In this document: in pieces, positions 12,041 through 46,675 of the stretch
Layout of the letters: each line of letters begins with the position of its first letter
Position numbering within the stretch: the first letter of the stretch is position 1
Assembly: GCA_030538275.1 (NCBI GenBank)
Contig: JAUNUH010000007.1
Location: forward strand, 62,001 to 126,000
Origin: Flavobacteriaceae bacterium
Lineage (GTDB): Bacteria; Bacteroidota; Bacteroidia; Flavobacteriales; Weeksellaceae
DNA: 64,000 nucleotides
Direction of reading: 5' to 3'
Program-made: the position numbers and the translations under genes
The notes under the pieces: generated by a model
Databases searched by the model: none
What the model saw: the letters and a program-made list of their open reading frames with translations, nothing else
Told to the model about the DNA's origin: nothing

Positions 12041-12132
12041 TTTTAGGAGCCGGGAACCTGCCTTTCACTGCAATCTTTTGCTTTTCCTTATATGGAAGAA
12101 AAGCAAAAGGATTTCCGTTACAGTCAGGGCTA
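12041..12132. repeat. Dispersed flavobacterial intergenic repeat (palindromic)
   Basis: Starts TTTTAGGAGCCGGGAACCTG and ends AGTCAGGGCTAG. In the middle is a 12-bp hairpin, CTTTTGCTTTTC with GAAAAGCAAAAG. Related sequence occurs on the minus strand at 42500-42665 (TTTAGGAGCCGGGAA ... GCATCGGGGCTGGG) and partly at 38441-38500. Elements of this type recur between genes in Flavobacteriia. The rest of the gap to 12503 is A/T-rich and contains no gene I can support. Confidence 0.6.
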
Positions 12133-12503
12133 GTTACAATTCGGATTTTACAAAATAGTTTCAACACATAAAGCACATCAGTTGAGTCTCTCTGCGTGAA
12201 AATAATAGTTCACTTTAGTTTTTCATCTTTGATGAAAATTGATGTGCACTTATGAAAACGCATGATATGCAACTTGCCCTCATGTGCTTTTTGTGTAAAA
12301 AACAGCAAAACCGAGCTTCAAAAAAACTTTTATTGCGCCAGTTTTATAGGTTTTTACGGGCGCTTCACGCTGCGAGGAATGCGAATATCAAAAAATCCCA
12401 GTTTTTTTCAAAAAAGTCCTATTTTCTGATTTATATCATCTATAGTTTTGTCTAACTGATTTATTAATACCTAATTAATGAATTATTTATTCAAAAAGAA
12501 TTG

Positions 12504-38263: not shown

Positions 38264-38425
38264 CTATTTCGCAAAAATTTCCTTCAATTGGGAAACGATG
38301 CTGCTGTTTCCGGAAACGGTGATGTCACCGATTTTGTCAGCAATTTTTTCCATGTATTCCATTTCCTTCAACTTCCACAAAGTGTTGTATTCTTCCATCA
38401 ATTTGGCGGTGTTCAACAAAATTCT
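38264..38425 (-). pseudogene. Slipin 3'-end fragment (second copy)
   Basis: The minus strand encodes ARILLNTAKLMEEYNTLWKL, then KEMEYMEKIADKIGDITVSG and QLKEIFAK stop. This nearly matches the last ~53 residues of the full slipin at 42714-43811 (which has MLNTAKLMEENTTLWKL). At DNA level about 190 bases, including the terminator, are repeated with roughly one change in ten or fewer. Upstream of the homology the frame runs into the dispersed intergenic repeat, so the rest of the gene is missing. It is the remnant of a second slipin, or one end of a duplication that brackets the 38.7-42.4 kb cassette. Confidence 0.85.
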
Positions 38426-38440
38426 GGCTTCGCGGACTGG

Positions 38441-38600
38441 TTTACCCCGATGCGAGCGGAAATCCTTGTAAGTCGGGCAGCTATACGAATCTTTTAACCT
38501 GATGCTTCCACTCCGCACAGCTACGTCCTCATTCGTAATTCGTAATTATTTGGGCGTGCCCCTCATATTTCTGCCCACTCCGCGGCGTCCGGCAATGGCA
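38441..38600 (-). repeat. Dispersed flavobacterial repeat sequences flanking the slipin fragment
   Basis: Minus-strand GATTCGTATAGCTGCCC ... AAGGATTTCCGCTCGCATCGGGG matches the repeat at 42500-42665 (GATTCGTAGAGCTGCCC ... AAGGATTTTCGATTGCATCGGGG). Next to it lies another G/C-rich palindromic patch (GAGGGGCACGCCCAAATAAT) of a type common between genes in Weeksellaceae. No gene is in 38426-38686. Confidence 0.6.
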
Positions 38601-42713: not shown

Positions 42714-43811
42714 TTATTTCGCAAAAATTTCCTTTAATTGGGAAACGATGTTGCTGTTTCCGGAAACGGTGATGTCGCCGATTTTGTCAGCAATTTTCTC
42801 CATGTATTCCATTTCCTTCAACTTCCACAAAGTGGTGTTTTCTTCCATCAATTTTGCGGTGTTCAACATACTTCTGGTGGAAGCGGTTTCTTCCCGTCGC
42901 ATGATGGAGTTGGCCTGTGCTTTTTTCTCGGCAATCAAAACCTGGTTCATGATTTCCTTCATTTCACCGGTTAAAATTACGTCCCGAATTCCGGCATCGG
43001 CAACTTTCAAACCTAGATCTTCGGCGCGGTTTCCGAAATTGGCTAAGATTTCGGCTCCTACATTGTCTTTTTTAATCAACAATTCATCCAAAGTTAAGCA
43101 ACCCACAAATTCCCGCAACGCCAACTGCATCAAGATATACAACTGTTTGTCGTAGTCTTTGTTTTCGGTTACGGCTTTCAAAACGTCGGAAATTTGGTAT
43201 CGCACGTAGAAATTAATCCGCAAATTCGCTTTGTCTTTGGTCAGTAATTCCTGTCCGGCAATTTCCATTTGCTGCATTCTCACGTCGATGGACTTCATTT
43301 CCACAGAAATTTCGTTGTTCCAGAAGTAGTAGGTTCCGGCTTCCAAAACGCTGATGAATTTTCCGTTCACAAACAGTAAACCTTTGTTCTGATTCGCAAC
43401 AATGAACTTCCGAACGAAGTTTCGCAAACGCATATCTTCCAAAATGTTGGTGGAAATATTTTCGGTGATTTTCACTTTCTTCAAGTCGATTTTTTGAAAA
43501 GTTCTGTCGATAATTCCTTTCCAGAAAGCGTATTGCCCAACTCCGAAAACTTCTTTAAAGATGCCGTTTTCATAGATTAAAACCAATTCACCATCTTTCA
43601 CGTCCACGATTTCTAACATAGAAGCCAAAACCTCGTTTTTCAACAAAATGTTGAGGTCTTCATCGGGTTTGAACTGTTCTTTCATTTCGAAAATCTTTAC
43701 GGATTTGTTACCAAAAATCCAGTTATTACCTTCTTTCAAAATCTCAATCAAGTTCCGGTTTTTGAAAACCAATGCGACTTGATATGCTTTAATCTGTAAA
43801 TTTTTAATCAT
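42714..43811 (-). CDS. Slipin / SPFH (band-7) family protein
   Basis: 365 residues. The central SPFH domain runs about 130-270 (NKGLLFVNGKFISVLEAGTYYFW, MQQMEIAGQELLTKDKANLRI, VRYQISDVLKAVTENKDY, LALREFVGCLTLDELL, GLKVADAGIRDVILTGEMKE). It is followed by a coiled-coil tail (AEKKAQANSIMRREETA, LMEENTTLWKLKEMEYMEKI). The N-terminal 100 residues look like a second, degenerate barrel-like unit (GELVLIYENGIFKEVFGVGQYAFW repeats the later pattern), and no transmembrane hairpin is obvious. Band-7/slipin genes occur beside RNA-ligase repair genes in several bacteria. Here it is last in the row after the tRNA-like array, HIRAN, RNA ligase and RNase H-like genes, so a scaffold role for RNA repair is inferred. 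Confidence 0.85.
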   Translation of the reverse strand: MIKNLQIKAYQVALVFKNRNLIEILKEGNNWIFGNKSVKIFEMKEQFKPDEDLNILLKNEVLASMLEIVDVKDGELVLIYENGIFKEVFGVGQYAFWKGIIDRTFQKIDLKKVKITENISTNILEDMRLRNFVRKFIVANQNKGLLFVNGKFISVLEAGTYYFWNNEISVEMKSIDVRMQQMEIAGQELLTKDKANLRINFYVRYQISDVLKAVTENKDYDKQLYILMQLALREFVGCLTLDELLIKKDNVGAEILANFGNRAEDLGLKVADAGIRDVILTGEMKEIMNQVLIAEKKAQANSIMRREETASTRSMLNTAKLMEENTTLWKLKEMEYMEKIADKIGDITVSGNSNIVSQLKEIFAK

Positions 43812-43950: not shown

Positions 43951-44135
43951 TTTCGAAATGAACCAATGGTACATTCCTACGTTCAAATTAATTCCTTTCG
44001 TCTTTATTATTTCAAAATTCTCAATCTCGCCAAAATCTTAAATACTTAAAAAATCAACTTCTTTACTGGCTTTTTCGAAAATTCTGATTGAACAGCCGAT
44101 AAAAGCCCGCGTTTTTCCAACAGATATTTATTTTT

Positions 44136-44178
44136 AGAAGGAATATCAAAAACCTTCTCCTACGGTTTTCAAGACCGT
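44136..44178 (-). ncRNA. Degenerate third tRNA-like module
   Basis: Two consecutive hairpins on the minus strand: ACGGT-CTTGAAA-ACCGT (44178-44162), which looks like a Ser(UGA) anticodon arm or a decayed T-arm, and AGAAGG / CCTTCT (44158-44136) with an 11-base loop, which could be a closed acceptor stem. No D-arm follows, so it is incomplete compared with the two modules upstream. Confidence 0.4.
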
Positions 44179-44179
44179 T

Positions 44180-44256
44180 CTTCTCTATGTTATGAACATA
44201 GTGAGCTACCAATTGCTCCATACCAAACAGAATTTGGTAGCGGGATTCGAACCCGC
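44180..44256 (-). ncRNA. Permuted tRNA-like RNA, module B (CAU anticodon loop)
   Basis: Read 5' to 3' on the minus strand: T-arm GCGGG-TTCGAAT-CCCGC (44256-44240); 3' acceptor strand TACCAAA (44239-44233); 5-base linker TTCTG; 5' acceptor strand TTTGGTA (44227-44221), a perfect 7-bp match; TG; D-arm GAGC-AATTGGTA-GCTC (44218-44203); A; anticodon arm CTATG-TTCATAA-CATAG (44201-44185, loop with CAU); AGAAG as variable loop. All tRNA parts are present, but the T-arm and 3' acceptor strand come first. In normal order the acceptor strands of neighbouring units do not pair. The closed acceptor hairpin means it cannot be charged without processing. The layout is that of the tRNA-mimic domain of YrlA RNAs. 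Confidence 0.75.
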
Positions 44257-44263
44257 ACTCTTT

Positions 44264-44338
44264 GCTATTACTCTAACCAACTGAGTTATCGTTCAAATTG
44301 TTGCTGAACAAACAGGATTCGAACCTGTGACCGATAGC
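44264..44338 (-). ncRNA. Permuted tRNA-like RNA, module A (YrlA-like)
   Basis: Minus strand, 5' to 3': anticodon-stem 3' strand GCTAT (44338-44334); variable loop CGGTC; T-arm ACAGG-TTCGAAT-CCTGT (44328-44312); 3' acceptor TTGTTCA (44311-44305); linker GCAACAATT; 5' acceptor TGAACGA (44295-44289; six Watson-Crick pairs and one G-T); TA; D-arm ACTC-AGTTGGTTA-GAGT (44286-44270); A; anticodon-stem 5' strand ATAGC (44268-44264), which pairs perfectly with GCTAT. Every spacing (2-base connector, 1-base junction, 5-base variable loop) equals that of a real tRNA, but the ends lie at the anticodon stem. A decayed copy of the acceptor hairpin (TGTTCAGC..TTTGAA) lies just upstream at 44388-44372. Confidence 0.78.
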
Positions 44339-44474
44339 GTGGCAGAAATTATATGGTCAATTTCTAAAACCTTCAAATCAAGCTGAACAGAAATATATAA
44401 TGCATTTTTCGGCAAAATTTTCTGCAATGGTGCCATGCAGAAGCACTCAACAAGACTTGTCTGATATCATTATT

Positions 44475-44528
44475 AATTCAAGATTCCAAATTTCGGATTT
44501 CGAATTCCGGATTTGAAATTCTTGAATT
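44475..44528. repeat. A/T-rich imperfect palindrome after the HIRAN gene
   Basis: AATTCAAGA ... TCTTGAATT arms with CGGATTTCGAATTCCGG in the centre form a palindrome of about 54 bases ending in the HIRAN stop codon. A related AATTCCGAATTC patch lies between the ligase and the RNase H-like gene (45890-45916). These are low-complexity intergenic repeats of a kind common in Flavobacteriia. Confidence 0.55.
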
Positions 44529-44838
44529 ACTTTCCAATCAAATGTGCAACAACACGAATCTGATGTTCGGGATGTGCAGTGGCATCTCTGGTTTGAACCA
44601 GGATCCGGATATTTTTTTCTAGACCTACTTTCAGCATTTTGTAGAAAATTCTGTTTTCGGTTCGGGGAATAAATCCGATTTTGTGATCCTTAAAATAGAT
44701 CGCAACTGCGCGTGCATCGTATCTGTTATTTTCTTCAAGCTGCAGTTTGAGTTTCTGACCGATTTTCAGTTTTTCAAAAACCAAAGCACCGTCATAGTAA
44801 GTAAATCCTGCGATATTGAAGTTGGCTAAATGTTCCAT
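44527..44838 (-). CDS. Stand-alone HIRAN domain protein
   Basis: 103 residues that are almost entirely one HIRAN domain: NIAGFTYYDGALVFEKLKIG, LKLQLEENNRYDARAVAIYF, KIGFIPRTENRIFYKML and the final VVAHLIGK. HIRAN domains of eukaryotic Rad5/HLTF bind nucleic-acid 3' ends; stand-alone bacterial versions are of unknown function. It is seven bases downstream of the RNA ligase gene in the same operon, so I infer that it helps recognise damaged RNA or DNA ends for the ligase. Confidence 0.85.
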   Translation of the reverse strand: MEHLANFNIAGFTYYDGALVFEKLKIGQKLKLQLEENNRYDARAVAIYFKDHKIGFIPRTENRIFYKMLKVGLEKNIRILVQTRDATAHPEHQIRVVAHLIGK

Positions 44839-44845
44839 TTTGTAG

Positions 44846-45847
44846 TTATTTTTTAATTAAAAATTCATTCTTTATCAGGTTCAGCGAAAAACTGTTGACC
44901 CGCTTGTTCACTTTCTTTTGTTCCTCTTTTTCGAGCGATTCATAATCAGCGGAAAATTCGTTTTTGAAGTCTTCCAAAGCATCCTGAACTAACAATCCGT
45001 TTATTTTTCCGATTAATTTGGGTTCAAACCGACCAATTTTACTCATCAAATTATTCAACCTGTTGAGATTGATGAAGGATAGGATTTCAGTCAGAACTTT
45101 TTCTGCAGATTCTGAAAGAGGAGTTGCCTCAATTTCTTTCCGTTCCACCTTTACCTTTTCGCTCCACTTTTCATTTTTGTTTTTCAGAATAATTCTGGCA
45201 CCGTTCCCGAAGAAAGCGGGTTTCAAGGGCTTTATAATGACACCTTCACATTCATTGTCTTCAATTTCAGGAAGATTCAACCATTCCGGAATTTTGGAAT
45301 TAAATTCTTTTGGGAATTTCAGAGCTTCTTCTAAATCTCCCTCAAACAAAGTTCTAGCATAGAAAAATCCATGTTTTTCAAAGTATTGGTTTGCAGTTTC
45401 CACATCTAGGAATTCAGTATCATCAATCATAATATCGAATGCATAAAATTCATTGAAAGGCGCATAATCAATGCCTTTTTGAACTTTGATGGCATCATTA
45501 ATCCTCTTTACATCGGGATGTTTGTAGGCACCACCAAATATTTCTCCGAAAACCGCAATTTTTGCTACCGAAGGAATTAAATTCTTTAAATCCTCAAATA
45601 ATTGAAAGACATTGCTCCTGTATTTTTCTAAAATCTGCTGACCGTTGAAAAAAACTTCGTCCGGAAGGATAAAATCAGTTCTTTTCGCAATTTTTATTTC
45701 ATTTCCGTTGGTTTGGAAAGAAAAGTTTGCACCGTGAACTTTCTCCTGAACAATAAATTTTTCTTTGTTCAGTCCAAGAAATCTGATTCTGTCCAGAACC
45801 TTTTCCTGATAAGAGTTTTCTATTGAGTTGTATTTCTTAAGATTCAT
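44846..45847 (-). CDS. T4 Rnl2-type RNA ligase
   Basis: 333 residues, matching T4 RNA ligase 2 (334) in length. Nucleotidyltransferase motifs are in order: motif I EKVHGANFSF with the adenylated Lys near residue 36, IKIAKRTDFI, motif III VFGEIFGGAYKH, motif IIIa FYAFDIMIDD, motif IV CEGVIIKPL and motif V ARIILKNKN. A helical C-terminal Rnl2 domain follows (about 250-333). Such enzymes seal nicks (3'-OH/5'-phosphate) in double-stranded RNA, including broken tRNA stems or loops held together. No partner kinase/phosphatase (Pnkp-like) is in the window, so 2',3'-cyclic ends would need outside help. It is flanked by HIRAN and RNase H-like genes, with tRNA-like RNA arrays on both sides. Confidence 0.92.
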   Translation of the reverse strand: MNLKKYNSIENSYQEKVLDRIRFLGLNKEKFIVQEKVHGANFSFQTNGNEIKIAKRTDFILPDEVFFNGQQILEKYRSNVFQLFEDLKNLIPSVAKIAVFGEIFGGAYKHPDVKRINDAIKVQKGIDYAPFNEFYAFDIMIDDTEFLDVETANQYFEKHGFFYARTLFEGDLEEALKFPKEFNSKIPEWLNLPEIEDNECEGVIIKPLKPAFFGNGARIILKNKNEKWSEKVKVERKEIEATPLSESAEKVLTEILSFINLNRLNNLMSKIGRFEPKLIGKINGLLVQDALEDFKNEFSADYESLEKEEQKKVNKRVNSFSLNLIKNEFLIKK

Positions 45848-45916: not shown

Positions 45917-46402
45917 TCACACCATCAAATCCGCACAGTTGGAACTCGCAAACGCATAAGGTTTTGCCTTAAAAACATAACCCATTCCCAAAATGTAGCC
46001 CATTGCATCGCGTAAAGCGATATTGGATTTGAATTCTGCATCGGTGTTGATGTCGGCGTGAACTTCCATTTCTACATTGAATTCGTCCAAGATTTCAAAA
46101 ATTCTGTAGGCGATTTCCACGGATCTGTTCACCTCGTTCAACATCCTTTCTTTGATGCTGATGTTCTGAAATTCCTTCTGTTTTCGGATAAATGTAAACG
46201 CACCTTTTCCTTTTCGTACGAACACAACCGCCGTTGCATAATGAATTTCGTTGCCGTAAACATGAGAATCCGAACCAATGCAGACCTTCAAAGTATGCCC
46301 CAAATTCTGTTCGCGGATGATGGCTTCTCTCACCAATAATTCAATCGGATCGGTGAAGAATTTTCCACTCATATTCTGCCAAATTTCCTGTTGTGTTTTC
46401 AT
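45917..46402 (-). CDS. RNase H-fold protein, YkuK (DUF458) family
   Basis: 161 residues. The strand-acidic motif CIGSDSHVYGNEIHYATAVV (about 40-60) and the later MEVHADINTDAEFKSN (about 112-127) are the expected acidic positions of the RNase H-like fold in the YkuK/DUF458 family. TPFTDPIELLV-like N-terminal and YVFKAKPYAFASSNCAD C-terminal segments complete the match. A predicted RNase H-like nuclease of unknown substrate. It is the first protein gene after the tRNA run and is followed 69 bases later by the RNA ligase, so it could trim damaged RNA ends before sealing (inference). Confidence 0.82.
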   Translation of the reverse strand: MKTQQEIWQNMSGKFFTDPIELLVREAIIREQNLGHTLKVCIGSDSHVYGNEIHYATAVVFVRKGKGAFTFIRKQKEFQNISIKERMLNEVNRSVEIAYRIFEILDEFNVEMEVHADINTDAEFKSNIALRDAMGYILGMGYVFKAKPYAFASSNCADLMV

Positions 46403-46457
46403 TTTTTGTACGTTTAAGTTGTTCTACGTCATTTTTTAATTGTTTAATAAATTGTTG

Positions 46458-46530
46458 TGGAAAGAAAAAGAATTGAACTTTTACCTCAACATTTTCAGTG
46501 TTGCGTGCGTACCAATTACACCATCTTTCC
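46458..46530 (-). tRNA. Atypical tRNA-Phe (GAA)
   Basis: Canonical order on the minus strand: acceptor GGAAAGA (46530-46524) with TCTTTCC (46465-46459), perfect 7 bp; TG; D-arm GTGT-AATTGGTAC-GCAC; G; anticodon arm CAACA-CTGAAAA-TGTTG (anticodon GAA); 4-base variable loop AGGT; T-arm AAAAG-TTCAATT-CTTTT; discriminator A. CCA is not encoded (ACA follows). The A/T-rich T-stem and 4-base variable loop are unusual for a chromosomal bacterial tRNA-Phe and look more like phage or mobile-element tRNAs. Confidence 0.7.
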
Positions 46531-46599
46531 GGTTTTAGACCTTCATGGATTTTACATCTATGAAGGTTTTGGATTTCCGAGAGACAGTCGGAAAACCTT
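46531..46599 (-). ncRNA. Degenerate tRNA-sized unit between tRNA-Asn and tRNA-Phe
   Basis: 69 bases exactly filling the space between two tRNAs. Outer GGTTTT (46597-46592) pairs with AAAACC (46536-46531). Inside are CCGA-CTGTCTC-TCGG (an anticodon-arm look-alike with GUC) and a perfect 8-bp stem ACCTTCAT / ATGAAGGT (46567-46560 with 46546-46539) whose 13-base loop contains TGTAAA. An alternative 8-bp stem AAGGTTTT / AAAACCTT competes with these. No normal D- or T-arm is present, so it is either a decayed tRNA or a structured mimic. Confidence 0.5.
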
Positions 46600-46675
46600 T
46601 GGTAATTTCGGAAGGACTTGAACCTTCAACATTCGGCTTAACAGGCCGGAGTTCTACCCATTGAACTACAAAATC
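46600..46675 (-). tRNA. tRNA-Asn (GUU), CCA encoded
   Basis: Minus strand, 76 bases: acceptor GATTTTG (46675-46669) with CGAAATT (two G-T pairs), TA, D-arm GTTC-AATGGGTA-GAAC, T, anticodon arm CCGGC-CTGTTAA-GCCGA (one terminal mismatch; anticodon GUU), variable loop ATGTT, T-arm GAAGG-TTCAAGT-CCTTC, discriminator A and encoded CCA. Two wobble pairs and a mismatch make it weaker than a housekeeping tRNA. It lies about 50 bases after the attenuator-like terminator and heads the tRNA/RNA-ligase row. Confidence 0.72.

Follow-up and report, generated by a model that had tools for sequence, protein, structure and literature searches.

We analysed a 64,000-nucleotide (nt) stretch of a Flavobacteriaceae genome (contig JAUNUH010000007.1, positions 62,001 to 126,000; hereafter the window, whose coordinates are used throughout), in which a sequence-only reading had picked out two tandem tRNA-like modules with their parts in circularly permuted order. 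The modules and the SPFH operon all lie on the minus strand, where the order is tRNA genes (Asn, Phe), an RNaseH_like gene (PF04308), a gene for an Rnl2-type RNA ligase, a gene with a HIRAN domain, the modules and an SPFH/Band-7 gene (Table 1). These permuted tRNA-like modules are real and are conserved across Bacteroidota. They belong to a longer conserved RNA, and the constant partner of this RNA is the SPFH gene, not the ligase.

Modules A and B both present their cloverleaf parts in the order T-arm, 3′ acceptor strand, short linker, 5′ acceptor strand and D-arm. Module A starts with GCTAT, followed by CGGTC, the T-arm ACAGG-TTCGAAT-CCTGT and the 3′ acceptor strand TTGTTCA; the linker GCAACAATT then leads to the 5′ acceptor strand TGAACGA, TA, the D-arm ACTC-AGTTGGTTA-GAGT, a single A and ATAGC. 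Its acceptor helix has six Watson–Crick pairs and one G-T, and its two ends pair as an anticodon stem (GCTAT/ATAGC) with a junction of 1 nt and a variable loop of 5 nt, which is the spacing of a tRNA. Module B consists of the T-arm GCGGG-TTCGAAT-CCCGC, the 3′ acceptor strand TACCAAA, the linker TTCTG, the 5′ acceptor strand TTTGGTA, TG, the D-arm GAGC-AATTGGTA-GCTC, an A and a complete CAU anticodon arm, CTATG-TTCATAA-CATAG. All seven of its acceptor pairs form. Read in normal tRNA order, the acceptor strands of A and B (TGAACGA/TACCAAA) make only two of seven pairs. These features, with linkers of 9 and 5 bases and the failure of normal-order pairing, had all been claimed in the sequence-only reading, and they stood when we read the sequence again.

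ARAGORN, run on the window, did not call modules A and B and found no transfer-messenger RNA (tmRNA). Rfam at its own thresholds gave a single marginal tRNA match that bridges the two modules (29.3 bits, cut-off 29). A covariance model, one of the checks that had been proposed, was built on 33 type-A sequences that include module A of this locus but not module B. It scored 73.6 bits at A and 40.3 bits at B (match 44198–44261), with a next best score of 11.5 bits in the window and a best of 25 bits in the rest of the genome. Such a model is not sufficient evidence by itself, as tandem duplicate tRNAs score too.

Table 1. Positions in the window of the parts of the RNA and of the genes around it.
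Feature	Position	Strand	Description
5′ domain	44339..44474	-	Closing helix (CAAGUC/GAUUUG type, GUUG/CAGC), two hairpins, another hairpin before module A
Module A	44264..44338	-	T-arm 44312-44328, 3′ acceptor 44305-44311, linker 44296-44304, 5′ acceptor 44289-44295, D-arm 44270-44286
Module A, anticodon-stem ends	44334-44338 and 44264-44268	-	Pair with each other
Module B	44185..44256	-	T-arm 44240-44256, 3′ acceptor 44233-44239, linker 44228-44232, 5′ acceptor 44221-44227, D-arm 44203-44218, anticodon-arm hairpin 44185-44201 (loop TTCATAA)
Extra anticodon-arm-like hairpin	44162..44178	-	ACGGT-CTTGAAA-ACCGT
H-type pseudoknot	44123..44158	-	S1 AGAAGG/CCTTCT, S2 GATATT/AATATC, loop 3 A-rich
SPFH/Band-7 (slipin-like) gene	42714..43811	-	Pfam Band_7, E 3.5e-26; constant downstream neighbour
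HIRAN-domain gene	44527..44838	-	Upstream of the RNA; Pfam HIRAN, E 8.7e-15
Rnl2-type ATP-dependent RNA ligase gene	44846..45847	-	Pfam RNA_ligase and T4_Rnl2_C
RNaseH_like (PF04308) gene	45917..46402	-	Adjoins the ligase; E 7.1e-32

Conservation and covariation of the modules

A search of 197 genomes of the family turned up relatives of Rnl2 in 31, and tandem modules appeared where an SPFH gene came after. We therefore dropped Rnl2 as a search handle and took SPFH instead. Rnl2 linkage was also rejected as the defining context, with an SPFH homologue in reach at only 9 of the 30 Rnl2 loci first fetched, whereas the RNA and SPFH co-occur. Among 395 genomes of the phylum, 20 entered the SPFH-based sample, together with 80 named loci; most of these loci came from Chryseobacterium and Flavobacterium, others from Winogradskyella, Chitinophaga, Niastella, Tenacibaculum and their relatives. 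A T-arm lies upstream of every SPFH homologue in the phylum sample (20/20) and at 97 of the 99 distinct SPFH loci; the full permuted module, searched as a sequence motif, is present at 75. A permuted-module scan found 89 modules in 62 of the 80 regions upstream of SPFH homologues. The reverse strand gave none, a control stretch downstream gave one, and dinucleotide shuffles led us to expect 2.7. The 89 probably include a few ordinary tRNAs of the neighbourhood, which stand about 1 kb from SPFH in some Flavobacterium loci. The number of modules per locus varies: two loci (L072 and L073) have three permuted modules and some appear to have one. The sequence-only reading had placed a bacterial pair inside a ligase operon. 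Rnl2 is indeed nearby here, but what is constant among homologous loci is SPFH/Band-7, and both the type of ligase (Rnl2, RLIG1 or RtcB) and the number of modules change.

For an unbiased test of the acceptor helix we chose modules by their T-arm and D-arm motif and ignored the acceptor (n = 105). These modules have a mean of 6.29 acceptor pairs out of seven, and 97 of them have six or seven. Among the 78 distinct acceptor combinations the mean was 6.14 pairs, compared with 3.49 when strands were shuffled between modules (maximum 3.95 in 5,000 shuffles); the sampled loci are related, and these shuffle results are not probabilities. Across 28 consecutive module pairs, the acceptor in normal order made 3.32 of seven pairs, which is the chance level, and 6.86 in permuted order. 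We also aligned the homologous loci and looked for compensatory changes. From an alignment of 33 type-A modules (A3), RNAalifold recovered the cloverleaf unaided, with 17 of 21 pairs doubly changed, 99.1% of cells paired and a covariation of 0.625 (0.11–0.13 for slid structures); all helices of module A showed compensatory changes. The rows of A3 were chosen partly on pairing, and the 105-module test provides the unbiased figure.

A longer RNA with a 5′ domain and a pseudoknot

The conserved RNA that contains the modules spans at least from about 44474 to 44123 and lies about 300–600 nt upstream of SPFH. Its parts are a covarying 5′ domain, at least one module, anticodon-arm hairpins and an H-type pseudoknot. 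The 5′ domain is about 135 nt long and has covarying helices of its own. In an alignment of 30 loci (A4), 9 of the 23 pairs in its RNAalifold structure were doubly changed; when the last hairpin was added by hand, 14 of 30 pairs were doubly changed, 92.5% of cells were paired and covariation was 0.376, compared with 0.05–0.13 in slid controls.

Hairpins of five pairs with a 7-nt loop follow the D-arms. We counted 43 distinct ones, of which 38 carry U33 and 5 do not; a few of the 43 look spurious. In 19 type-B modules from Chryseobacterium and close relatives, the identity of the anticodon stem was 0.96, and that of loop positions 32–36 was 0.72, 0.89, 0.33, 0.44 and 0.22. The anticodon triplet of module B thus differs between congeners on a fixed stem, a pattern that suggests either a changing bait or a structural arm whose triplet is free.

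Downstream of the last module come an anticodon-arm-like hairpin and then the pseudoknot. In the window, 16 nt of this extra hairpin are identical to the anticodon arm of the genome's own tRNA-Ser(UGA), and its equivalents in relatives have the loops CTCAAAA or CTGAAAA. A pseudoknot with differing paired sequences was found at 75 of 99 loci, compared with 9 of 99 after shuffling. When loci were anchored on S1 and the A-run only, and thus blind to S2, 33 of 48 S2 helices were fully paired, with 11.8 expected and a maximum of 21 in 2,000 shuffles; an earlier anchor that had included anticodon hairpins was dropped. In many loci ACCA often stands directly 3′ of the pseudoknot (for example, GATGACCA, CGGTCACC and GGCATACC). 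A scan for sigma-70 consensus promoters was discarded, as it is not informative in Bacteroidota.

Relation to tRNA genes, YrlA and other tRNA-like RNAs

Two readings would make the modules tRNA genes. One holds that they are decayed tandem copies of ordinary tRNA genes, with halves that pair because the copies were of the same tRNA. Tandem duplicate tRNAs do produce the same signature, and our covariance model found such cases, but we reject this origin on the covariation and on the normal-order control: compensatory changes occur in all helices, and consecutive modules pair at chance level in normal order. The place upstream of SPFH and the flanking structure are conserved as well, and we give decay practically no weight. 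The other, raised in the sequence-only reading, is that the modules are circularly permuted tRNA genes like those known from algae and an archaeon. The likeness lies in a 3′ half that comes first, a short intervening sequence, a 5′ half and a ligase gene close by, and intervening sequences in the algal and archaeal genes span 1–74 bp (PMC3978253). Those genes, however, conserve the features of working tRNAs, have a bulge–helix–bulge (BHB) splice site and give mature CCA-ended products (PMC3978253). Here, module A lacks an anticodon, the triplet of B is not conserved, 5 of the 43 arms lack U33, and the acceptor ends are closed by linkers of 3–13 nt, many of only 3 nt, with no CCA in any of the 105. 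No bacterial tRNA-splicing endonuclease of the BHB-splicing type is known to us, and no search aimed at one was made. The anticodon arm of B is already complete, so nothing is left there to join, and the SPFH-neighbour proteins that we scanned mostly include RtcB rather than Rnl2. The genome also has 34 ordinary tRNA genes. Short linkers without CCA, a module without an anticodon, a variable triplet and a set of ordinary tRNAs leave the tRNA-gene reading unsupported and very improbable; the modules are almost certainly tRNA mimics.

The permuted order is that of YrlA, as had been noted: a T-arm, then an acceptor hairpin and a D-arm, with both chain ends on the anticodon side, in an RNA linked to RNA-repair genes. 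Of the Rfam YrlA model (RF02553, 114 positions), only the tRNA-like centre, positions 23–85, matches module A; the match scores 30.4 bits (E 1.7e-4 in 751 nt), below the gathering score of 69. Matches to SPFH-linked modules stay within about 23–87, whereas some TROVE-linked copies cover 1–114, and the ends of the model, which form the basal Ro60/Rsr-binding stem, are not matched by the SPFH-linked modules, in keeping with the earlier remark that a Ro-binding stem is not evident. We considered whether the RNA could still be YrlA proper, a Y RNA bound by Ro60, whose basal stem has diverged. It has the same permuted module, and YrlA-like RNAs adjoin TROVE genes in related genomes. Its own genome, 95% complete, gave no match to Ro60/TROVE (PF05731), however, and on this ground we reject YrlA proper, which the partial match also renders improbable. 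Because the model match stops at 23–85 and the genome lacks TROVE, we class the module with that of YrlA but not, by the features tested, the RNA as a whole. The RNA differs further in having SPFH, not Ro60, as its constant neighbour, often tandem modules, added anticodon-arm hairpins, its own 5′ domain and an H-type pseudoknot. The tRNA-like domain of YrlA binds PNPase and is modified like a tRNA (PMC8394870). One proposal is that this domain competitively inhibits an anticodon nuclease, and the nuclease tested in Salmonella did not accept YrlA as a substrate (PMC7790460).

Our covariance scan of the 395 genomes also gave strong matches outside SPFH loci; among the 20 that we examined, 13 were near TROVE genes and 7 were ordinary tandem tRNAs. 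YrlA-like Y RNAs of Bacteroidota adjoin TROVE genes (L200, L202, L205, L206 and others), several per locus in some. They score 28–45 bits against Rfam YrlA, whose cut-off is 69, and annotation at the Rfam threshold would therefore miss them.

With tmRNA the RNA shares a tRNA-like part and a pseudoknot in one molecule; it differs in having a full D-arm and anticodon arm, several modules and no acceptor end at a 3′ terminus. Burroughs and Aravind (2016) reportedly described a novel tRNA-like molecule cognate to SPFH/Band-7 modules. Two traits of that group are found here: a tRNA-like RNA stands directly upstream of SPFH, and repair genes surround it. The present RNA probably belongs to the group, and the paper may or may not have covered its permuted order, tandem modules, variable anticodon arms and pseudoknot. 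Our literature search, which did not take in its text, found no description of an SPFH-linked tRNA-like molecule.

Outside the phylum we had a small sample of nine plasmid-collection records with SPFH relatives (33–41% identity), six of which were scanned for modules. At SPFH loci of Photobacterium and two Burkholderia (L252, L253 and L255), tRNA-like parts stand in normal order, with 7, 7 and 6 acceptor pairs and, where readable, 2 in permuted order. Records of E. coli, Citrobacter and Subdoligranulum have a T-arm followed by an acceptor hairpin, which in Citrobacter sit between rtcR and the slipin gene. By eye, a sequence like a sigma-54 promoter lies upstream of the tRNA-like parts at the Burkholderia loci. 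Because the form is permuted in Bacteroidota and in normal order at three proteobacterial loci, we suggest that shape, not decoding, has been selected.

Proposed function and gene neighbourhood

We conclude with high confidence that the RNA is a structured non-coding tRNA mimic. The modules are probably parts of one operon-embedded RNA that acts as partner of an SPFH/Band-7 RNA-repair system, a reading to which we give a probability of about 0.6. Each module retains the elbow and acceptor stack of a tRNA (T-arm and D-arm, TTCRA and GG loops, acceptor helix), a short loop closes its acceptor end, and the anticodon side is where the chain both comes in and goes out, an arrangement shared with the tRNA-mimic domain of YrlA. 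Such modules would dock proteins that recognise the tRNA elbow, be it a repair ligase, a nuclease or an exonuclease (PNPase in the case of YrlA), and would bring them to the SPFH scaffold. More weakly, we infer that the anticodon hairpins may be displayed as lures for anticodon nucleases; the mimic would then be cut and re-ligated in place of working tRNAs. Taken further, the RNA could be an array of anticodon baits, with loops that differ by lineage, for nucleases that come from rivals, from phages or from toxins of the cell itself; once cut, the RNA would be sensed or re-ligated by the neighbouring ligase on the SPFH scaffold, and permutation would close the acceptor and bar use in translation. 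This bait role is speculative, and we hold it to be doubtful.

Several points weigh against these proposals. The partner role is read from sequence, and binding of proteins by the RNA is a prediction. A bait would have to be cut in its anticodon loop, yet YrlA itself was no substrate in the Salmonella test (PMC7790460). The variable triplets could reflect relaxed constraint. The RNA might also serve in cis as a leader of SPFH, in whose messenger RNA the modules and pseudoknot would form an operator bound by a tRNA-recognising protein (a ligase, synthetase or nuclease), in the manner of the thrS operator. It does lie upstream on the SPFH coding strand and is probably cotranscribed, inspection by eye suggests that the sequence immediately ahead of the SPFH start is conserved too, and the proteobacterial tRNA-like parts lie between the sigma-54-like element and the slipin gene. 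However, about 310 nt separate the end of the pseudoknot from the SPFH start in the window, a distance that varies between loci, and contact with the start site is not evident; module number varies; a scan of the minus strand from the pseudoknot to the SPFH start found no terminator-like site; and the same module is used in YrlA, an RNA that acts in trans. We regard a leader function as unlikely and prefer the partner of an SPFH repair system. The work thus gives the anatomy of a widespread, uncharacterised RNA tied to SPFH/Band-7 RNA-repair systems, with tandem permuted mimics, anticodon arms whose triplet varies between species, and a pseudoknot; no Rfam family covers any of these at threshold. 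With the set of homologues, the covariance model and the bait hypothesis, the role of tRNA mimics in RNA repair can be tested directly.

Repair functions recur around the RNA. Pfam was run on proteins encoded at homologous loci, 72 from the upstream side and 50 from the downstream side; it found RtcB in 14 of the 50 downstream proteins and RNase_T with counts of 7 and 9. Other neighbours were RNaseH_like, metallophosphoesterase, RNA_ligase, T4_Rnl2_C, RLIG1, RlaP, RF-1, PNKP phosphatase and TROVE, and RNaseH_like is kept upstream of Rnl2 across the 30 loci examined. A viral origin was rejected, as the SPFH protein has no relatives in viral contigs or phages.

About 30 Weeksellaceae loci (L032–L061) carry some 4 to 17 extra tandem tRNA genes just upstream of RNaseH_like and Rnl2, and the Leu copies in these arrays lack the long variable arm (74–76 nt). 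The tRNA-Phe and tRNA-Asn of the window occupy the corresponding site (46457–46675). Their mean identity to array tRNAs is 66–73%, compared with 50–55% for the genome's other Phe and Asn tRNAs; because they are the closer ones, the window seems to hold a reduced array. About 4 kb from the SPFH gene, on the minus strand, an open reading frame of 84 amino acids (38264–38518) resembles the C-terminal part of SPFH (TAKLMEE...KEIFAK), as if a fragment had been duplicated. The window also contains a Flavo-1 RNA (RF01705), a known small RNA family, on the minus strand at 12050–12135, and Flavo-1 RNAs lie within a few kb of SPFH or TROVE genes at two other loci (L083 and L205).
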